DNA of 64,000 bases from an uncultured Anaerolineae bacterium. Its GTDB lineage: Bacteria > Chloroflexota > Anaerolineae > Promineifilales > Promineifilaceae. Positions 27,693 through 37,790 of this stretch are shown one piece after another; the stretch's first letter is position 1; every line of letters starts with the position of its first letter. The notes beneath the pieces are model-generated. The model worked only from the letters and a program-made list of their open reading frames with translations. It was not told the origin of the DNA and searched no databases. Location of the stretch: assembly GCA_905479495.1 (NCBI GenBank), contig CAJQMR010000004.1:62001-126000 (forward strand). Direction: 5' to 3'. Both the position numbers and the translations under genes were made by a program.

Positions 27693-28235
27693 TCAGGGCA
27701 GCGGGACACCAACACCTTGGGTACAGGCACCACCCAGCTCAGGCGTTTGCGAACCTAGCCGGTAACGCTCGATAAATTGCTCAACACGCGCATCATCGGC
27801 TGACTCAACTTCAAGCTGAATACCCCAGGCTGTAAGGACAATCGGGCTGCGTTGATCCGGATATGGACTCACCAACAAATAGGTCTGCCCGCGCACAATA
27901 TCTTCCAAAGCTGCCACTTCATCTGCGGGCAAATCCGGTTGATAGGTAATCCACAGCGCGCCATGCTCCATCGAATGAATTGCATTGCCAGTCTGGATTG
28001 GTTCCTCATAAATGCCACAATTTTGCCAGATGTTGTAATGCTCGCCCCCGGCCGGTGGCAATTCAGACGTATCAAATACCAATGTATCATCGTGGCCTCG
28101 AGCCGGGCGTGGAAACTGGACAACATTCTCTATTTGTGGTTCAGGACGCACATTCAAATAAAGAATAAATGCCAGACCTGCTAATCCCAAAACGACCATG
28201 CCTAAAATGATTTGATTGCGACGATTGCTCAACAT
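27693..28235 (-). CDS. DUF3105 protein, copy 2
   Basis: A 180-residue membrane-anchored protein with one N-terminal helix and an outer DUF3105 domain: GGEHYNIWQNCGIYEEP, then IHSMEHGALWITY, and a C-terminal Cys in GGACTQGVG. The invariant His residues and two Cys could bind metal. The ATG at 28235 is preferred to the TTG at 28247 because GGAG then lies at the right distance. It shares the copper island with a close paralog upstream; a copper role is inferred only from that setting, as DUF3105 has no known activity. Confidence 0.75.
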   Translation of the reverse strand: MLSNRRNQIILGMVVLGLAGLAFILYLNVRPEPQIENVVQFPRPARGHDDTLVFDTSELPPAGGEHYNIWQNCGIYEEPIQTGNAIHSMEHGALWITYQPDLPADEVAALEDIVRGQTYLLVSPYPDQRSPIVLTAWGIQLEVESADDARVEQFIERYRLGSQTPELGGACTQGVGVPLP

Positions 28236-28271
28236 CTTCTTCTCCAAAACTGTGCTTTGAGGGGCAAATAA

Positions 28272-28874
28272 TTAACCTACAGGTGTGCCAATACCACCGG
28301 AGCAGGCTGATCCAGACTCTGGACCCTGTACTTGTTTATACCGATCAATAAACTCATTAATCCGTGCGTCTTCCGCAGAATCAACTGCTAGTTGACGGTC
28401 CCATACGGTTAATACAATTGGGCTTACCTGGTTGGGATAAGGACTCAGCAGCGTATAACCCTCACCACGCGCCATATCTTCTAAAGCGACGACTTCTTCA
28501 GCAGGCAAATCAGGGTTGTATGTAATCCACACGGCCCCATGCTCCATAGAATGAATGGCATATTGGCCTTCTACCGGCGTTACGTAGATGCCACAATTTT
28601 GCCAAACAGGCGCATGCGGTCCACCCATCGGGGGCGTATCACCAAAAGGAATTTGCAGTTGATCATCGTGCTGGTTTGCCACGGCCGATTCCACAACAAC
28701 CACGCCTTCAACTTCTGGTCGCGTCGCCCGATAGATGAGTAACCCCACCATAGCCAGCGCCACAACCCCAATTGGCACCCAGATGCGTAAAGTACGCATA
28801 CGTTTCTCACGCACCACCTGCTCCCGCCGCACATCCCGCTTGCTCCGCTTTTGGCCTGCTGATCTTTTGCTCAC
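28272..28874 (-). CDS. DUF3105 protein, copy 1
   Basis: A 200-residue paralog of the next gene: basic N-terminus (KRSKRDVRREQVVREKR), one helix at about 30-48, then the DUF3105 domain with GPHAPVWQNCGIYVTP, IHSMEHGAVWITY and a late Cys in SACSGGIG. The GTG at 28874 has CGGAG at 8 bases. The extra basic leader is not in copy 2. It is the first gene after the copA terminator, so this part of the island may have its own promoter. No ACGGCCGT copies occur in either paralog. Confidence 0.75.
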   Translation of the reverse strand: MSKRSAGQKRSKRDVRREQVVREKRMRTLRIWVPIGVVALAMVGLLIYRATRPEVEGVVVVESAVANQHDDQLQIPFGDTPPMGGPHAPVWQNCGIYVTPVEGQYAIHSMEHGAVWITYNPDLPAEEVVALEDMARGEGYTLLSPYPNQVSPIVLTVWDRQLAVDSAEDARINEFIDRYKQVQGPESGSACSGGIGTPVG

Positions 28875-29008
28875 TTGTTGTCTCCGTAGGTGTTTTGTGC
28901 CACTTGCAGACCCTAATGGCTTGCAAATCGCGCCCGCAATTATCCCCAGGAATCCAGATCCATCAATAAATTTTCATACGAAACTCAGACTCGGGTCCGC
29001 TTTTGGCA

Positions 29009-29048
29009 CAAAAAAAGGCCTCAGCCACTAATGAAGTTGGCTGAGGCC
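29009..29048 (-). terminator. Intrinsic terminator after copA
   Basis: An 11-base perfect stem (TGGCTGAGGCC half) at 29017-29048 is followed on the minus strand by about eight T residues (29016-29009). It ends the csoR-copZ-copA transcript and separates it from the DUF3105 genes. Confidence 0.85.
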
Positions 29049-29078
29049 GCAACGCTCAGGGGGAGCAAATCGTTAAAA

Positions 29079-31601
29079 TCACACGTTTAGTCGGCGCAGG
29101 CGCAGGGCGTTTGTTACCACACTGATGCTCGAAAAAGCCATCGCGCCAGCCGCCAAAATGGGGTGAAGCTGCTTAAGAAAGTCTGGTGCCCAGGCAAACG
29201 GGGCCAGAATGCCAGCCGCTACGGGAATAAGAATGGTATTGTAACCAAAGGCCCAGGCCAAATTCTCACGAATGTTGCGCATGGTGGCTTTGGACAAATG
29301 GATTGCTTGCGGCACACTACGCAAGTCACCGCGCATCAAAGTCACATCGGCCGTTTCCATCGCCACATCGGTGCCAGTCCCAATCGCCAGCCCCACATCG
29401 GCCTGTGCTAAGGCAGGCGCATCATTGATGCCATCCCCCACCATGCCGACTGTGTACCCTTCCTCTTGCAATTGCTTGACGTAGCTAGCTTTGTCGCCCG
29501 GTAACACCTCAGCAAAAACACGGTCAATGCCCACTTCGGCAGCGATGGCGTTGGCTGTGGCCTGGTTGTCACCGGTCATCATTACCACGGTAAGGCCACG
29601 GGCTTTCATAGCGGCGACGGCATCTTTGGAGCCTTCTTTGATGGTATCGGCAACGCCAATGACGGCGCTGGCTTGCCCATCAACGGCCAGCCACATGGCG
29701 GTTTTGGCCTCGTCTTGCAATGCTTGCGCTTTAGCCTCCAGCCCATTGAGAGGCACACCTTCCTGTTCCATAAGGCGCAAATTACCGATCAGGACGTTAC
29801 GGCCGTTTACCTCCGCCGACACACCATGACCAGCAATCCCGCTAAAGTTAGTCGGTTCGTCTAAAACCAACCCTTTTTCCCGTGCAGCCCGCACAATCGC
29901 CTCACCCAGCGGATGTTCAGAGCCACGTTCCGCGCTGGCGGCCAGCTGAAGCCAGTAATCAGTGGGGCGGTTATCCGTTATCGGTAATCCGTTAACGGCC
30001 ACTGGTTCACCGATAACCGCTAGCTGTTCGCTCAGTATCACATCTGTCACGGCCGGTTCGCCGCGGGTGATCGTGCCAGTTTTGTCCAACACAATAGCGT
30101 TAAGCTTTTGCACCTGCTCCAGAGCAGTGCTGCTTTTGAATAAGATGCCTTTTTCAGCTCCCTTGCCCATGCCCACCATGATAGAGGTGGGGGTTGCCAA
30201 CCCCATCGCACAAGGGCAGGCAATAACCAGAACGGCCGTTAACCGAATCAACGCTGGAACAAAACCGGCATCGCTAAATAACCAAATCACAAAGGTAAGC
30301 ACCGCCATGCCAATAACAAACGGCACAAAATACGCCGCAACTTGATCCACGACGCGTTGAATGGGGGCTTTGCTGCCCTGTGCCTGCTCCACCAGCTTGA
30401 CGATCTGGGCCAGGGCCGTTTCTTTGCCCACTTTTGTGGCTTCAAATTTGAGCAAGCCCTGTTTGTTGATTGTGGCACCAATTAATTCATCACCGGCTTC
30501 TTTGTTCACCGGCAGCGATTCACCGGTAAGCATGGATTCATCGACGGCGGAACGGCCGTCCAACACCACACCATCCACCGGAATCTTTTCACCAGGTCGA
30601 ACCAGCACCACATCCCCTTTCACCACCTCAGCAATGGGAATGTCCAGTTCCTGACTATTGCGCACCACGCGCGCGGTTTTGGCCTGCAAGCCTATCAGCT
30701 GCTTAATCGCTTCACTGGTGCGCCCTTTGGCCCGCGCTTCCAGCAGCTTACCCAATACAATCAAGGTAATAATCACCGCTGAGGTCTCAAAATAAACATG
30801 ATCTCCCAGGGCAACGCTGCCCCAGAAAGTTCGGGCGAGCAAAACGGCAATGCTGTAGAAATAAGCCACAGACGAGCCCATCGCCACCAACACATCCATA
30901 TTGGCGCTGCCATTACGCAAGCTTTTGTAGGCTCCCACGTAATAATCCCAGCCAACATAAAACTGTACGGGCGTGGCCAGGACCAAAAAGAGCCAGTTCA
31001 CCCAGGTGGCGTGCGCCCAATGGCCAATCAGGCCAAAATCACGGCTCATGCTAAATAAGAAAAGGGGCAAGGAAAAGAGAATACCCACCATCAGGCGGGT
31101 TTTCTGATGTTGGATTTCAGCTTCGCGGGCAGCAGCTTCGGCATCTTCTAACGCTTCGTCGCCTTCGGCTTCTACCACGTCGTAGCCCGCCTTACGCACC
31201 GCCGCAACCATTTCGGAACGGTTAACAGCACCAGGAGCGTAAGACACGGCCGCTTTTTCATTGGCATAGTTCACCGTGGCCGACAGCACGCCATCAACCT
31301 TGTTCAGAGCACGCTCGATGTTGGTGGCACAGTTAGCACAGGTCATCCCCAGCAGCGACAGTTCTAAATCGGCCGTGGGAATTTCGTAACCAGCCCGTTT
31401 GACCTTTTCGATAACGGCCGTTGTCACATCCTGGCTTTTCACAACAGCAGGATCGTAGCTGAACGTCACCTTTTCATTGGCAAAATTGACCGTTGCCCCG
31501 GTGACACCTTCAACTTTTTTAGAATTGCGTTCCACCGCTGCCACGCAGTTGGCACAGGTCATGCCCAACACAGGCAGCGTCACTAGTTTTTCTTCGGACA
31601 T
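29079..31601 (-). CDS. copA: Copper-translocating P1B-type ATPase
   Basis: An 840-residue ATPase with two N-terminal heavy-metal domains (C16ANC19 and C88ANC91), about eight helices, TGES phosphatase motif, C462PC464 transport motif, D506KTGT phosphorylation site, the HP motif ([10 protein letters not shown]) and GDGINDAP. This is the Cu(I)-exporting CopA type. ATG at 31601 follows GAGGAAGG. Residues about 527-549, just before the nucleotide-binding domain core, are encoded by a copy of a dispersed intergenic repeat inserted in frame (see the repeat entry); most CopA proteins lack this stretch. It is downstream of csoR and copZ. Confidence 0.95.
29957..30023. repeat. Dispersed repeat embedded in frame within copA
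   Basis: The bases GGTTATCCGTTATCGGTAAT and, further on, ACCGATAACCG match the palindromic elements at 37808-37872 and 61176-61221. Here the element is inside the coding region and is read through without a stop, adding some 23 residues. Confidence 0.7.
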
Positions 31602-31622
31602 TTTGTCCTTCCTCAAAAAAAT

Positions 31623-31697
31623 TTAGCCACAGCGTTCACAGAGAATTGGAGAGACCAATCAATAACCCCCTTTCTTCTCTTTTCCCACTGTGGCTAA
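31623..31697. repeat. Inverted repeat of TTAGCCACAG...CACAGAG type
   Basis: Left arm 31623-31645 and right arm 31674-31697 end in matching TTAGCCACAG/CTGTGGCTAA. It separates copZ from copA. A relative is at 35930-35992. Confidence 0.8.
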
Positions 31698-31738
31698 TAA
31701 AAATCAAAGATGGGAACCTTTGCAGTCCCCCAAACAGT

Positions 31739-31960
31739 TTAGCTAATCTGAATAAGCCCTTCGGGCGGGTAGTTAATCTCTTGCAGCAGCGCCTGAATTT
31801 TTTCCCAGGAAGCCGGATCGCTCCACTCAACTGTTACTTTTTTGGTTTCTTGCTCAGCCTTTACACTTTGCACACCAGACAAATCGCCTAATTCCATCTC
31901 AATGGTGTGGGTGCAGTGACCGCAGCTAATATTAGGCACTGTAAATGTTTTTGTCGTCAT
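31739..31960 (-). CDS. copZ: Copper chaperone, heavy-metal-associated domain
   Basis: A 73-residue single HMA domain with SC13GHC16 in place of the usual MxCxxC (here IxCxxC). It should carry Cu(I) to CopA. GAGGAG lies six bases before ATG 31960; the ATG at 31966 is too close to the ribosome site. The acidic/Lys pattern (ETKKVTVEW) is normal for the fold. It starts 18 bases after csoR, so regulation is shared. Confidence 0.9.
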   Translation of the reverse strand: MTTKTFTVPNISCGHCTHTIEMELGDLSGVQSVKAEQETKKVTVEWSDPASWEKIQALLQEINYPPEGLIQIS

Positions 31961-31978
31961 GATCATCTCCTCAAAAAA

Positions 31979-32263
31979 TTAAATTTTATTTGACATGGTA
32001 AAAACACTGGTAATCTCTTGCAAAACGCGCTCCCGTTCATCCGGCTCATCGTCACGAATAGCCGTGGTCACGCAAGTGTGTAGATGATTGTCCAGTATGA
32101 TGGAGGTAACTTTATTTAGCGCGGCCTGCACTGCCTGCACCTGCTTAATCACATCAATGCAGTAGGTGTCATCTTCCACCATCCGCTCGATGCCTTTAAT
32201 GTGCCCAGCAGCACTAGCCAATCTTTGTTTCACCGTTTTTTTAGTTACGTCGTCCATATTCAT
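31979..32263 (-). CDS. csoR: CsoR-type copper-sensing repressor
   Basis: A 94-residue all-helical protein of the CsoR/RcnR group. Cys35, His60 and Cys64 (TYCIDV, NHLHTC) match the Cys-His-Cys Cu(I) site of CsoR. Without copper it binds DNA; Cu(I) releases it. ATG at 32263 lies eight bases from a G/C-tract operator, so it probably represses itself together with copZ and copA. The upstream frame to 32329 has no ribosome site and would cover the operator. Confidence 0.93.
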   Translation of the reverse strand: MNMDDVTKKTVKQRLASAAGHIKGIERMVEDDTYCIDVIKQVQAVQAALNKVTSIILDNHLHTCVTTAIRDDEPDERERVLQEITSVFTMSNKI

Positions 32264-32270
32264 CTCGCTT

Positions 32271-32294
32271 ACCCCTCCCCCCAGGGGGTGGGGT
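32271..32294. promoter_or_regulatory. CsoR-type G-tract operator
   Basis: ACCCC-T-CCCCC, CA, GGGGG-T-GGGGT: a near-perfect palindrome with one mismatch, of the kind bound by CsoR proteins. It overlaps the likely ribosome binding site of csoR. Confidence 0.75.
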
Positions 32295-32391
32295 TTCCTA
32301 CATTGTACTCTATTTGTCCCAGCTGTCAACGGCCAAATCTGGGGGAATTTAGGTCAAATGTCATCTGACCTGAGAGCTATTGACAAAGGGA

Positions 32392-32420
32392 TTGACGAGA
32401 TAAACTGATAGTGTTATACT
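32392..32420 (+). promoter_or_regulatory. Strong sigma-70 type promoter
   Basis: TTGACG (32392-32397), 17-base spacer, TATACT (32415-32420). Transcription would begin near 32427, right before a hairpin terminator and about 100 bases before the hydrolase gene. Confidence 0.75.
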
Positions 32421-32440
32421 GTTTACGGCTCCCCCCCCAG

Positions 32441-32484
32441 AGGTGGTCGGACTAACGCCCGTTAGTTCGCCACCTCCTTTTTTT
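32441..32484 (+). terminator. Intrinsic terminator directly behind a promoter
   Basis: AGGTGG...ACTAAC (32441-32456), loop GCCC, GTTAGT...CCACCT (32461-32475), then CC and seven T residues (32478-32484). Lying only about 15 bases past the predicted start site, it would give a transcript of about 58 bases unless read through: an attenuator of the hydrolase gene or a small RNA. Confidence 0.7.
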
Positions 32485-32528
32485 GTCTATTCACCAGCAG
32501 GGATGCCACAGCAAATTAGGACGAAACC

Positions 32529-33206
32529 ATGCAGAATGAAAAACCCTTTCTTGTTGAAGATGAAACGGCCGTTTTACCCCACCGCGTTTTAAAACCAAAC
32601 ACACCTGGCCCTCATCCCACCGTTGTGCTGATCCATGGCCATTTAGGCTCAGAAGATGTGATGTGGATCTTTCGGCAGACGCTGCCGCAGGAGTGGCTAC
32701 TGGTTGCCCCCCGCGCCATTGTAGATGAAGGCAACGGCCGTTACAGTTGGCATCCCCGGCAGCAAGATGAGTGGCCCGCGCTGAGCGCCTTCGATACGGC
32801 CGTTGACGTACTGGAACAATTTATCGACACATTACCAGGGCGATATGATGCCGATCCCAATCAAATTTACCTGATGGGATTCAGCCAAGGCGCAGCGACC
32901 TCTTTTGCCATAGCCATCCGCACGCCAGAGAAAGTGCGGGGCATTGCCAGCCTGGTTGGATTTATGCCGCGAGAAGTGGATGATGCGATTGAAACAGCAC
33001 GACTGACCGACCTGCCTGTATTCATGGCGGTTGGCACAGAGGATGACCGCGTTCCCCTAGAAATTGCCAGAGAATGTGGCAAAGCAGTTCGAGCAGCAGG
33101 GGCCTTTCTGGAATACCGTGAATATGAGACGGGTCACAAGCTAAACGGAGCCGGGATGCGCAAGCTCAAAAGCTGGTGGGCCGAACGTGCCGCAGAAATT
33201 TCTTAG
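32529..33206 (+). CDS. Alpha/beta hydrolase, carboxylesterase/phospholipase type
   Basis: A 225-residue cytoplasmic hydrolase. Oxyanion loop HGHLGSED is near residue 35, nucleophile Ser in GFSQGAATS at about 118-122, acid Asp near VGTEDDRVP, and catalytic His in ETGHKLN near residue 203. This is the abhydrolase_2 pattern. Natural ester substrates are unknown. AGGA lies upstream of the ATG. Expression appears to pass through the promoter-terminator leader at 32392-32484. Three ACGGCCGT copies are read as TAV or NGR. Confidence 0.88.
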   Translation: MQNEKPFLVEDETAVLPHRVLKPNTPGPHPTVVLIHGHLGSEDVMWIFRQTLPQEWLLVAPRAIVDEGNGRYSWHPRQQDEWPALSAFDTAVDVLEQFIDTLPGRYDADPNQIYLMGFSQGAATSFAIAIRTPEKVRGIASLVGFMPREVDDAIETARLTDLPVFMAVGTEDDRVPLEIARECGKAVRAAGAFLEYREYETGHKLNGAGMRKLKSWWAERAAEIS

Positions 33207-33209
33207 CTA

Positions 33210-34037
33210 TCAAACACGGTTGTTTTCCCCCTGAAGCTGCTGCTGCAAAACGGCCGTCACAGCCATAAACGCTTCAGCCTGCGGGGTATCTGGGTGATCG
33301 TGCATGAGGGGATTGGCCTGATTGATGCTTTGGGAAACGGCCGTTGTCAGCGGTATCTGGCCTAAAATGGGCGTCTCGGCCAATGCCGCTGGCCGCCATT
33401 TAGCCGATCGTTGAAAAATCTCGTGCTTCTCATTGCAGTTGGGACAAATGAAATAGCTCATGTTCTCCACGATGCCCAAGATTGGCACATTGGCTTCCTG
33501 AAACATCAACAGCGAACGAGACGCATCCAGCAGGCTCAAATCCTGCGGCGTGGTAACGATGACAACCCCACGCAGCGGCACTCGCTGCAACAACGACGCC
33601 TGCGGCTGTCCGGCCGATGGGGGCAAATCGATCAGCAAATAATCGAGCGGTCCCCAAATCACGTCTTTCAAGGTTTGTACCACCAGTTGCCCCACCGCGT
33701 CCGGGCTGCGCGCCGGATCAATCACTTCGTTTTCGGCCACGAGTAAACCAATTGACATAATGTTTAATCCAAAGCGAGAAAGTGGTTTGATGTACGGCGG
33801 CGCTTCCTTACGGCGTGCAATGGCTGCCATGCCATCGGCTGCCTTATGGCGATGAATCCCGAGCATGATGGGCACATTGGGTCCGTACACATCGGCATCA
33901 AAAATGCCAACTTTGGCTCCCTGCCGCTGGAGCGCTAAAGCGAGGTTAACCGTTACGGTGGTTTTACCCACCCCGCCCTTGCCGCTGGCTACAGCAATGA
34001 TGTTTTTCACGTCTGGCAATATGATTTTTGAGTTCAC
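33210..34037 (-). CDS. mrp: Mrp/NBP35-type iron-sulfur carrier ATPase
   Basis: A 275-residue P-loop ATPase with G19KGGVGKT26, then [11 protein letters not shown] and [13 protein letters not shown], and a CPNC pair near residue 195 that would hold a bridging 4Fe-4S cluster in the dimer. It lacks the N-terminal MIP18 domain of long Mrp proteins. It is thought to load clusters onto target enzymes, which here could include the hydrogenase. GTG at 34037 follows AAGGAG at good spacing. It converges with the hydrolase gene, with 3 bases between stops. Confidence 0.9.
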
Positions 34038-34121
34038 GAACCTGTCTCCTTACCACTGCACGTGTTATCTATCGATATTCAACCGGATTGTGTCAAAGGG
34101 GTCAAGGAATTCATCCTGAAT

Positions 34122-34127
34122 TATAAT
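34122..34127 (+). promoter_or_regulatory. -10 box of a probable leaderless message
   Basis: TATAAT ends eight bases before the ATG at 34135, and no ribosome site fits in between, so transcription probably starts at or next to the start codon. Confidence 0.5.
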
Positions 34128-34134
34128 CATCCAT

Positions 34135-34875
34135 ATGGGGATCTCATTTCTACACCGATTACAGGAACTGGAAACGGCCGTTTCCTATACAGCGTTAGCG
34201 CCAGATGGGGAACCATCATTCACCTACCAACCAGGCGAGGTGCCTATCCTCATCTCTGCACCCCACGCCACGGTCCACCTACGCCGCCAACGGCTCAAGG
34301 GTGAAGAGGAGTTTACCGGCGCGCTGGTCCAATTCCTGGCAGAAAAAACAGGTGTCCATGCCCTTTACAGCCATTACCGCTCTTTAGGCGACCCGAACTG
34401 GGATCGCCAAAGTCCGTACAAGCAGCGCCTGCAAGAGATCGTGCAAAGCAAGGACATTCGGTTTGTGCTGGACCTGCATGGCATGTCTAACAAATACAAA
34501 ATTGGGTTGGCCTTGGGCACCATGAACGGCCGTTCCTGCCCAAACCAAGAATCGCTCATCATGCAAACCGTTGAGAAACAATTTCGCCCAACCAGCCAGA
34601 TGGCCGCCAAGAAATTCTCTGAACTGCGTTGGGACCATTTTGTCCTGAACCATCCGCGTTTTACGGGCGGATTGGCCAATTACACCATTACCCGCTTTGC
34701 ATCACAGCAGCTAGACGTCCCCGCGCTCCAAATTGAGTTGTGTGCCACTGCCCGCGTGGTGGAAAGACGGCCGTTAGACAAATGGCCCAAACCGTTTCGC
34801 GGCCAGCCCGAAGCCATTGCGCAAACGGTAAACTTGCTGCAAGCCTTGGTGAACACACTGCTTGGGACAATGTAA
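34135..34875 (+). CDS. N-formylglutamate amidohydrolase family protein
   Basis: A 246-residue hydrolase. SAPHATVHLR near residue 41 with the following EEEFTG, and DLHGM near 114, carry the His/Glu metal ligands of the FGase family, and ALQIELCATAR near the end matches the conserved Glu strand. The family removes formyl or related groups from amino acids, or acts on carboxypeptidase-like substrates; which one applies here is not clear. Probable leaderless start. It shares its upstream region with mrp, which runs the other way. Confidence 0.75.
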   Translation: MGISFLHRLQELETAVSYTALAPDGEPSFTYQPGEVPILISAPHATVHLRRQRLKGEEEFTGALVQFLAEKTGVHALYSHYRSLGDPNWDRQSPYKQRLQEIVQSKDIRFVLDLHGMSNKYKIGLALGTMNGRSCPNQESLIMQTVEKQFRPTSQMAAKKFSELRWDHFVLNHPRFTGGLANYTITRFASQQLDVPALQIELCATARVVERRPLDKWPKPFRGQPEAIAQTVNLLQALVNTLLGTM

Positions 34876-34949
34876 GAGTTGTGTAAAGAGAAAAGCACAC
34901 TCTGTAACCTGTGCTAAAATTTTGCATCAGAAGAAGAGGAATTTTACCA

Positions 34950-35438
34950 ATGAGAAAACAACCGTGGTGGAAAGGGCCAAATGGCGAATGGTACGTGGTA
35001 ATCCAGGTTATTTTGTTTGGGCTGGTTGCCTTTGGTCCGGCTTCCTTGCCTGGTTGGCCTACCTGGGTTGGCGTGTGGCACACCAGCACCATTGTGGTTG
35101 GGCTGGTTCTGGGTGGACTGGGTGGCCTGTTGGTTTTGGGTGGCCTGGTCAGTTTAGGCAGTAATTTAACGGCCGTTCCCCGTCCCAAAGAAAATGCCCA
35201 CATGGTGGAACACGGTGCCTATCGTTGGGTGCGCCACCCTATTTACAGCGGTATTATTCTGGGTGCATTTGGGCTTGGCCTCCTGCGCGGTGGCTGGCTT
35301 AGCTTGCTTTATGCACTCATTCTATTTTTCTTTTTTGACGTTAAATCCAGACGGGAAGAATTGTGGCTACGCGAAAAATATGACGATTATGCAGCCTATC
35401 AACAACGCGTGCGCAAACTGATTCCTTTTCTGTATTGA
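34950..35438 (+). CDS. Isoprenylcysteine carboxyl methyltransferase-like membrane protein
   Basis: A 162-residue membrane enzyme with four helices and the ICMT/PEMT signature HGAYRWVRHPIYSG at about 87-100, followed by the late motif REELWLREKYDDYAAYQQRV. These residues bind S-adenosylmethionine. Bacterial members methylate isoprenoid or other lipid thiol/acid groups, with the target usually unknown. ATG at 34950 follows GAAGAGGAA. A rhodanese lipoprotein gene follows after 28 bases on the same strand. Confidence 0.82.
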   Translation: MRKQPWWKGPNGEWYVVIQVILFGLVAFGPASLPGWPTWVGVWHTSTIVVGLVLGGLGGLLVLGGLVSLGSNLTAVPRPKENAHMVEHGAYRWVRHPIYSGIILGAFGLGLLRGGWLSLLYALILFFFFDVKSRREELWLREKYDDYAAYQQRVRKLIPFLY

Positions 35439-35466
35439 TCTGATTCATCAACTTGGAGGTTTTACC

Positions 35467-35922
35467 ATGAAAACAATGGACATGAAACGTATTGTGCTGA
35501 TTTTATTTTTACTAACGCTGTTAGGAACGGCCGTTGCCTGTGGGGGCCAAACGGCAGCCACAACTGACCCTGCCCCAGCAGCCGTTGTTGATGCTGGCGA
35601 CACGCTCGATCTGGCTGACACGGTGGATGTGCAAACTGTAGCCAGCGTTAAAGATCGGGCTGACGTACTTCTGCTAGACGTACGGGAACCATTTGAATAT
35701 GACGAAGGGCACATCCCAGGCGTTACCCTTATTCCTATGAATGAAGTCGCTGATCGCCTGGCGGAAATCCCCACCGATAAAGAGGTGATTGTCACCTGCC
35801 GCAGCGGCAATCGCAGCAGCCAAATCACCGACTTTTTGCGCCAGCAAGGGTTTGACAATGTGCACAACATGGATGGTGGCATTCTAGCCTGGGAAGCTGC
35901 CGGCTACGATGTGGAAAAATAA
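35467..35922 (+). CDS. Rhodanese-domain lipoprotein
   Basis: A 151-residue lipoprotein: signal peptide with lipobox VAC25, a 30-residue Ala/Asp-rich spacer, then a rhodanese domain (VLLLDVREPFEYDEGHIPG, VTCRSGNRSSQ). The active-site loop CRSGNRS starts with the catalytic Cys that carries persulfide sulfur. Outside the membrane it may take sulfur from thiosulfate or relay it. GGAGG precedes the ATG. The palindrome ACGGCCGT falls inside the signal peptide and codes TAV right before the lipobox. Confidence 0.88.
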   Translation: MKTMDMKRIVLILFLLTLLGTAVACGGQTAATTDPAPAAVVDAGDTLDLADTVDVQTVASVKDRADVLLLDVREPFEYDEGHIPGVTLIPMNEVADRLAEIPTDKEVIVTCRSGNRSSQITDFLRQQGFDNVHNMDGGILAWEAAGYDVEK

Positions 35923-35929
35923 AAAATTT

Positions 35930-35992
35930 GCCACAGAGGGCACAGAGAAAAAAGAGAATACTTCTCATCAATCTCTGTCTCCTCTGTGGCTA
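35930..35992. repeat. Inverted repeat of GCCACAGAG type
   Basis: Arms 35930-35950 and 35971-35992 pair (GCCACAGAGGGCACAGAGA against TCTCTGTCTCCTCTGTGGC). It lies between the converging rhodanese and MscS genes and is related to 31623-31697. Confidence 0.8.
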
Positions 35993-36002
35993 AAAATAAA
36001 AA

Positions 36003-36860
36003 TTAACTATTTTTCGGAGGATCGCTGACGATCATGACGTCCTGGCGGGGGAAGGCTAGTTCCAGACCTTTTTCAGCAAAGATGATGCGAATTTGGCGGC
36101 GCAAATAGCGCTGCACTTCCCACTGGGCATTGGGCATCGTTTTCACCATGATGCGCAGCCGCACGGCCCAATCCTCTAACCCCTCCACACCAGTGACCAC
36201 GGCAGGCTCTTGCAGCAGCAAGCCCATCATTTTATGTTCGGCCATGGCTTCACCAATTTCTTGCAGGGTTTGTACGGCCGTATCCACATCCTCTTCATAC
36301 GTCACGCTTACATCCACAATCGCCCGCGACCAATCTCGTGATTTATTGGCCACAACACGAATCTCCCCATTGGGAATAATGTGGACCGTGCCATACAGAT
36401 CACGCATTTCCGTAGCCCGCAGTGTCATGTGCTCCACCGTGCCAGTGATGCCACCAATTTCTACCACATCGCCTACCGTGTAATGGTCTTCGATGAGGAT
36501 AAACAGCCCGGCAATCATATCCTTGACCAGCGTTTGCGCGCCAAGGCCAAACGCCAATCCGACAAAGCCCACACTAGCCAACACAGGCGTGATGGCCACG
36601 CCCAATTCGGTCAAAATCATCATGATTGCCGTACTGATGATGACAACCACGCCGGTGCTGTGCACCACGCGGAAAATGGTCTTTGTCCGCCGGTCTAACT
36701 CGCTGTCTTCCACATCATCCAGCGCCTGAATACGGCGGCTGAGCGTGCGAGTCAAGACACCCAGTAAATAATAGGCAAGCACAGACACAACCACGATCAA
36801 CAGAATCGTGAGTCCGTGCTCGCGCAGCCAGGTCAAAGCTTGTTCGTTGAAGTTCGCCAT
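36003..36860 (-). CDS. MscS-family mechanosensitive channel
   Basis: A 285-residue membrane protein: three helices (about 15-37, 62-84, 88-110), the pore helix with AFGLGAQTLVKDMIAG, the MscS beta domain (YTVGDVVEIGGITGTVEHMTLRATEMRDLYGTVHIIPNGEI) and the alpha-beta cytoplasmic vestibule. It releases solutes when membrane tension rises. Length is normal for the compact MscS type. It stands alone, with a repeat on one side and a short spacer to the fatty-acid genes on the other. Confidence 0.92.
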   Translation of the reverse strand: MANFNEQALTWLREHGLTILLIVVVSVLAYYLLGVLTRTLSRRIQALDDVEDSELDRRTKTIFRVVHSTGVVVIISTAIMMILTELGVAITPVLASVGFVGLAFGLGAQTLVKDMIAGLFILIEDHYTVGDVVEIGGITGTVEHMTLRATEMRDLYGTVHIIPNGEIRVVANKSRDWSRAIVDVSVTYEEDVDTAVQTLQEIGEAMAEHKMMGLLLQEPAVVTGVEGLEDWAVRLRIMVKTMPNAQWEVQRYLRRQIRIIFAEKGLELAFPRQDVMIVSDPPKNS

Positions 36861-36941
36861 AGTAAAAGTGTTGTTTGTCTAATTTCCCAGAAAACGACTC
36901 TTGTGAAATGGTTCCATCATAAAAGTTTCCGGGAAAATGGT

Positions 36942-37790
36942 TTATTTGTCGTAATCGTAAAAGCCATGCCCGGTTTTACGGCCTAAACGGCCGCTTTCCA
37001 CCAGGCGCTTTTGGATGGGATGAGGACGATATTTTGGCTCCTGGAAATAAGCATCATAAACAGACTGGGTCACAGCCAGATTCACATCACAGCCAATCAG
37101 GTCAACCAATTCAAACGGCCCCATGCGGAAGCCAATGGAACGCATGAGCTTGTCCAATGTGGCCGGATCGGTGGCGTTTTCGCCAAGCAGCCGAAACGCC
37201 TCGCCGTAAAACGGCCGTGCTACCCGGTTCACAATGAAGGCAGGCGTATCTTTGCAGAGAACGGCCGTTTTCCCCACCTGCGCCACATACCCCTGCACCG
37301 CAGCCACCGTCTCATCACTCGTAAAATCACCGCGAATGATCTCTACCAGCTGCATAATGTGGGCCGGGTTAAAGAAATGAACCCCCACCACCCGGTCGGC
37401 CCGTTTTGTCGCCCCAGCAATGGCACTGATGCTCAAACTGGAGGTATTGCTGCTCAAAATGGTCTCTTGCGGGGCAGCAGCATCCAGGGTGGCAAAAATC
37501 TCTCGCTTCAACTCCAACTTCTCCGGCGCAGCTTCGATGATAAGGTCGGCCTGTGCGGCCGTTTCCAGCGAGGTGGTCAGTTGGATGGCATCTTTAGCAG
37601 TTTCGGCCACAGCCGCTTCCGTTTTGCCCCGCGCCACACCCTTGTCAATCGAGGCCCGAATACCGTCCAGCGACTGCGCCAGCACGTCATCCGCCACATC
37701 GTATAAAACAACCGCATACCCCGCCAACGCCGACACTTGAGCAATGCCCGCCCCCATCGTGCCCGCGCCGATGACTGAAACCTTTTTCAT
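36942..37790 (-). CDS. 3-hydroxyacyl-CoA (3-hydroxybutyryl-CoA) dehydrogenase
   Basis: A 282-residue NAD-dependent enzyme. [12 protein letters not shown] at 7-18 is the NAD site; SSNTSSLSI and the catalytic HFFNPAH (His138 region) with the partner Glu in LVEIIRG follow, and the C-terminal helical domain ends in [10 protein letters not shown]. It oxidises L-3-hydroxyacyl-CoA in beta-oxidation or runs in reverse in butyryl-CoA synthesis. AAGGAAACAGT precedes the ATG. The enoyl-CoA hydratase gene lies upstream on the same strand, with a dispersed repeat in the 83-base gap. Confidence 0.93.

Follow-up and report, generated by a model that had tools for sequence, protein, structure and literature searches.

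A conserved, predicted small RNA with C-rich single strands in one family of uncultured Anaerolineae

Small RNAs with C-rich unpaired motifs are already known, and a C-rich motif is present in the CcsR, or cuckoo, RNAs of alphaproteobacteria. The part of PMC10253847 that deals with them describes small RNAs carried on one transcript with a protein gene, a common precursor from which RNase E cuts them. For the LhrC family of Listeria, with its multiple sibling copies, the relevant section of PMC4132741 describes how UCCC motifs, some looped and some single-stranded, bind a GGGAG-containing site. In mycobacteria, the 6C or B11 RNA has C-rich unpaired stretches; according to an excerpt of PMC10470900, the two C-rich loops of B11 could bind a six-G tract in the 5′ UTR of a target, and one of the papers in its reference list names a chaperone-free mode of 6C in its title. 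Terminator-type leaders, or attenuators, consist of a promoter, a hairpin and a T-run placed before a gene.

We compared with these systems a locus from a stretch of 64,000 nucleotides, hereafter the window. Like LhrC, the element has sibling copies and carries a C-rich motif both in a single strand and in the terminator loop, and its CUCCC core is complementary to GGGAG, the sequence given for the LhrC-bound site in that section of PMC4132741; unlike LhrC, it has one hairpin, a length of about 58 nt and a C-run of mostly 7–9, and it belongs to a different phylum. It shares C-rich unpaired stretches with 6C/B11, but a free C-rich 5′ tail and one terminator hairpin take the place of the two C-rich loops in the excerpt on B11, and unlike 6C it has no Rfam family match at threshold. 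As outlined for the CcsR RNAs, the transcript would be shared with a protein gene, whereas here the RNA comes first and has its own promoter and terminator. The order of promoter, hairpin and T-run before a gene recalls the terminator-type leaders, from which the element differs in that many copies have no sense downstream gene and that no alternative anti-terminator was seen. In terms of how they work, the LhrC-type multicopy sRNAs and the C-loop RNA B11/6C would be its nearest counterparts, by likeness of features rather than by demonstrated homology. We propose with moderate confidence that the locus is a stand-alone small-RNA gene, most likely acting in trans through its C-rich single strands without Hfq, with read-through into a hydrolase gene at the type of locus found in the window.

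Anatomy of the element

The element lies on the plus strand in the intergenic stretch between two divergent genes, and its terminator therefore serves no upstream gene. On one side, outside the RNA gene, is a csoR-family copper repressor gene (31979–32263, minus strand; PF02583, 5.3e-26); on the other, an alpha/beta hydrolase gene (Abhydrolase_2, carboxylesterase-like) occupies 32529–33206 on the plus strand (Pfam PF02230, 5.9e-16). The promoter, of the sigma-70 type (TTGACG-n17-TATACT, with the TG of an extended −10), covers 32392–32420, with the −35 hexamer at 32392–32397 and, after the 17-base spacer, the −10 hexamer at 32415–32420. The predicted +1 is the G at 32427, 7 bases beyond the −10. 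The putative small RNA, of about 58 nt, would run from there to 32484 on the same strand, its start being placed by the −10 and its end by the T-run. Between the predicted start and the hairpin, GGCTCCCCCCCCA occupies 32427–32439 and corresponds to a conserved C-rich 5′ tail predicted to be single-stranded, GGCUCCCCCCCCA. The terminator hairpin (32440–32476) has 16 pairs and a bulged T at 32447; its left arm (32440–32456) and right arm (32461–32476) enclose the loop GCCC (32457–32460), and the conserved apical loop with its closing pair, C[GCCC]G, covers 32456–32461. After a C at 32477, seven T form the terminator T-run (32478–32484). The fold of 32427–32528 has a z of −3.97, and none of 200 shuffles was equally stable.

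The preliminary description had placed the promoter, hairpin, T-run and hydrolase start where we read them in the bases. It had counted a stem of 15 bases where we find 16 pairs, and had put the hairpin about 15 bases past the start, where the onset is 13 bases past the predicted start; its product size of about 58 nt agrees with ours, as does its distance of about 45 bases to the hydrolase, whose ATG at 32529 is 44 bases past the T-run.

The promoter by itself proves nothing, for the local count is at chance level: a scan of the 9 kb from 28000 to 37000 gave 7 sites, against 7.4 ± 2.1 in shuffles, with no excess. This hairpin, with its bulged stem, was not in the output of a terminator scan either. 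It is the conservation across genomes that sets the element far beyond chance.

Conservation and distribution

A search with the 265 intergenic bases gave matches in 31 of 59 related genomes, and outside the own genus these matches mostly span the region from about the −10 through the T-run. Twenty-nine of 30 oriented DNA matches (L083 was left out) were aligned by plain MAFFT (alignment A1), and a covariance model, R1, was built from these copies. Within the family, R1 had matches in 46 of 52 genomes, with 108 copies altogether, and reached 22 of 22 genera and all 17 good-quality genomes; the match in the window covers 32427–32488 at 84.0 bits, and the own genome has two RNA copies. Most genomes hold one or two copies, at recurrent loci, and in two genera there are up to seven. 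We examined 107 of the 108 copies, leaving out one at a contig end. At one locus (L204 2365–2479), two RNA copies stand in direct tandem, as adjoining model matches.

In A1, which was not fitted to a structure, 9 of the 16 pairs had changed on both sides, and the covariation score was 0.470 against 0.169 for shuffled and at most 0.076 for slid alignments. Alignment A3, with 101 copies and 94 distinct sequences, was fitted to R1 and leans to the structure; there, 13 of the 16 pairs show both-side changes, in 362 cells, the paired share of the alignment is 96.1%, and the score is 0.633, compared with 0.185 for shuffles and no more than 0.091 for slid controls, with none of 500 shuffles as high. 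Conservation of the hairpin across relatives, which the preliminary description had named among its criteria together with that of the promoter, is found in 46 of 52 genomes, with compensatory stem changes, and a promoter-like sequence stands 6–7 bases upstream of most copies. The reading as a short regulatory RNA has strong support where the existence of a real RNA gene is concerned, conserved and under a promoter of its own; the predicted product looks regulatory.

The order of elements in the copies is promoter, 6–7 bases, tail, hairpin and T-run. Of the 107 copies, 106 have the tail core NRCTCCC (CUCCC in the RNA). The loop reads CGCCCG in 89 of 107, the remaining 18 being C-rich variants; it contains CCC, and UCCC is absent from CGCCCG. 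Both the loop and the 5′ tail, which reads GGCUCCC(C)n, are fixed, and the stem varies with compensation. Such a pattern of invariant single strands on a drifting stem suggests that the single strands may be the parts that do the work. The stem and T-run of the RNA's own terminator are conserved, with a low T content in some copies.

Conservation is confined to the promoter and the RNA. Among the hydrolase-linked copies (35 of 38 in the profile; the T-run of one more, L193, was misread), the mean ungapped pairwise identity was 0.27 in the flank from −100 to −46, 0.49 in the promoter, 0.84 in the 5′ part of the RNA and 0.30 in the 40 nt after the T-run, and thus near chance on either side. All 36 scored hydrolase-linked copies reached a promoter score of at least 9/12, against 6% of shuffled upstream sequences; the same score was reached by 37 of 58 other copies, leaving 21 below it, and by 8 of 11 copies of a genus with an extended leader (shuffles 6–9%). 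Two copies with short upstream sequence were skipped in this scoring. The hydrolase-linked promoters share the consensus TTGAC-n17-TATAcT, with a TG preceding the −10; in the non-hydrolase copies the −35 is, by eye, often of a TTTGC type. In the extended-leader genus (L217–L225, L227 and L228; 4–7 copies per genome), the leader is longer by about 6 bases and ends in GTGCATA or TGTGTA, and in several copies CUCCCUCU replaces the C-run. Several copies in one genus read GGCUCCCUCU.

Two alternatives bear on this pattern. The element could be without RNA function, either a small mobile element or a dispersed palindromic repeat, as the two genera with up to seven copies per genome and the one tandem pair might suggest; this seems extremely improbable, since most genomes have one or two copies at recurrent loci and the promoter and tail are conserved while the stem drifts by compensation. 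The C-run itself might sense nucleotides. In pyrG leaders, CTP-dependent initiation or slippage occurs at a C-run, and here many copies have a C-run at predicted +5 to +12, which could likewise make initiation or slippage dependent on CTP. We hold this to be very unlikely, because just two G precede the C-run, several copies of one genus have it reduced and farther from the −10, and no CTP-related gene was seen downstream.

Beyond the family, a search of 298 genomes of the class matched 17, namely 16 family members and one weak outsider, and a search of 400 genomes of the phylum matched three, all family members; none of four genomes of the order outside the family matched. The filters of these searches were strict, so that weak matches would be lost. 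The outsider (L129 1501–1554, 33.6 bits) has a hairpin without C-run and, by eye, no promoter; it is probably an ordinary terminator, and we excluded it from all counts. A scan with an exact pattern, strict enough to miss diverged copies, of a collection of named genomes, described as holding 84,980 species, gave 26 contigs, and the titles of all 26 name Chloroflexi/Chloroflexota, Anaerolineae, Anaerolineales, Anaerolineaceae, Ardenticatenia or Ardenticatenaceae; the names given to deposited family genomes include Ardenticatenaceae and Anaerolineae. Viral contigs gave no match to the RNA. Rfam cmscan of the whole window at gathering scores gave no match, including to the 6C RNA model, and 32380–32530 searched up to E 10 gave a single, unrelated match at chance level. 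Literature searches, some of them naming Chloroflexi-type taxa, brought up no title or abstract opening that describes such an RNA from these bacteria. As judged from the sequences, this appears to be a real conserved RNA family, undescribed so far as Rfam and the literature searched go. It is near-universal in one uncultured bacterial family, whose members in many cases have large genomes, and offers a compact and testable entry point to RNA regulation in Chloroflexota.

Hydrolase linkage and mode of action

We then asked whether the RNA serves the gene behind it. A hydrolase gene lies downstream of 38 of the 107 copies, always in sense, and in 37 of these its projected start is within 103 nt of the element end. 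This is the arrangement expected of a cis-acting transcription attenuator of the hydrolase, with a terminator opened by some signal. For the other 69 copies, which have no downstream hydrolase, the nearest downstream ORF, by mechanical ORF calls, is convergent in 42, sense in 26 and absent in one; a sense gene is therefore not common to all members. In three genomes (G013, G014 and G023) the RNA is present but no hydrolase was matched, although G013 is just 62% complete. At a second recurrent locus, which includes the second copy of the own genome, the convergent genes belong to shared protein clusters of about 160 aa and about 735 aa, by eye DinB-like (172 aa in the own genome) and ClpB-like. 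The own-genome copy there (L169 3963–4023; G000:C17:47762–47822) faces the convergent 172-aa gene, and its −35 region is TTGCC, not TTGAC.

The convergent neighbours and the genomes without hydrolase match indicate that the RNA is not tied to a downstream gene; it can be present, and is presumably able to act, where no gene follows. Moreover, no sequence is kept after the T-run, and fold energies are similar in linked (−25.7) and unlinked (−26.6) copies. We consequently judge an attenuator to be improbable. The preliminary description had also considered a leader whose read-through controls the hydrolase: as a general function this is excluded by the 69 of 107 copies unlinked to a hydrolase, and at the window locus read-through may be an additional output. 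Since there is little room for another promoter, read-through would be the simplest source of hydrolase mRNA, and the hydrolase is probably a secondary, read-through output of the RNA promoter.

In the scenario that we favour, that of a stand-alone gene, the sigma-70-type promoter would start an RNA of about 58 nt at GGCUCCCC..., which would end at its own intrinsic-terminator hairpin and leave two C-rich stretches unpaired, the 5′ tail and the CGCCCG loop. These stretches would pair in trans, without Hfq, with a small number of mRNAs at G-rich sites. The siblings located elsewhere would add to the dose or respond to other inputs, and at loci of the window type the polymerases that pass the terminator would also transcribe the hydrolase. 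A search for Hfq found none above the cut-off in 35 genomes, and such pairing would thus need a chaperone-free mode. More tentatively, we suggest a family-wide, Hfq-free regulon in which the sibling RNAs of about 58 nt, with their fixed C-rich tail and loop, would be a shared trans-acting regulator or protein sponge, the locus-specific promoters would be separate inputs and the hydrolase would be a built-in read-through partner.

Four approaches to targets gave no convincing pairing partner. The exact 10-nt complement GGGGGGAGCC was found in 11 genomes at 56 non-RNA sites against 61 for the reversed control, and was not enriched (78 matches, of which 22, two per genome, were counted as RNA copies); the sites are mostly inside genes. 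At 326 translation starts, crudely predicted as the first ATG of ORFs of at least 150 aa, GGGG was scarcer (19) than in two controls (41 and 35), and predicted duplexes of the tail were energetically no better with start regions than with controls. GGGAG was slightly commoner at these starts (20 against 12 and 12), as for any Shine-Dalgarno-like word. The best candidate in the window is at 1367–1386 on the minus strand, where GGGAGCC, complementary to the tail, stands just before the ATG of a gene for a 200-aa protein, by eye CDP-alcohol phosphatidyltransferase-like. We rejected it, as the word occurs in one of 11 readable orthologue starts, that of the own genome; a twelfth locus has no readable start. 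If pairing is the mechanism, these results imply that targets are few and specific or that the pairing is short.

Alternatively, the fixed tail and loop might bind a protein, for instance one that recognises C-rich RNA and for which the element would be a sponge or scaffold, with no pairing to mRNA. The stem that drifts around fixed single strands, the several copies per genome (up to seven) and the lack of enrichment of complementary sites would suit such a role; no partner protein was found, Hfq being the sole candidate looked for, and we consider this reading unlikely, although less so than an attenuator. An anti-Shine-Dalgarno mimic was rejected as well: the 3′ arm reads CCACCTCC here and resembles what we take to be the 16S tail, but other copies read CATCTCA or CACCTCA, so the likeness is not shared.

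Copper genes beside the element

Beyond csoR, the minus strand encodes an HMA copper-chaperone-like protein (31739–31966) and a copper P-type ATPase (29079–31616). Of the 30 csoR loci read, 7 have the RNA upstream of csoR at a distance of up to 500 nt, a proximity that may be synteny only. One could imagine control at the DNA level, with the C-run as a CsoR operator at the RNA promoter, since csoR adjoins here and at those 7 loci and csoR promoters have an operator-like C-run/G-run site similarly placed past the −10. We nevertheless rejected this idea and give it next to no likelihood: a profile built from 28 csoR-promoter sites picks out csoR promoters (its best 60 matches elsewhere, at about 9–25 bits, are nearly all of this type) and not the RNA copies, none of which scores above 4.0 bits (E 82 or worse). 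At the minus-strand csoR promoter itself, a C-run/G-run near-palindrome (32270–32295) stands just past the −10; it is kept in relatives, in 28 of 30 csoR loci by pattern, and is likely a CsoR operator.
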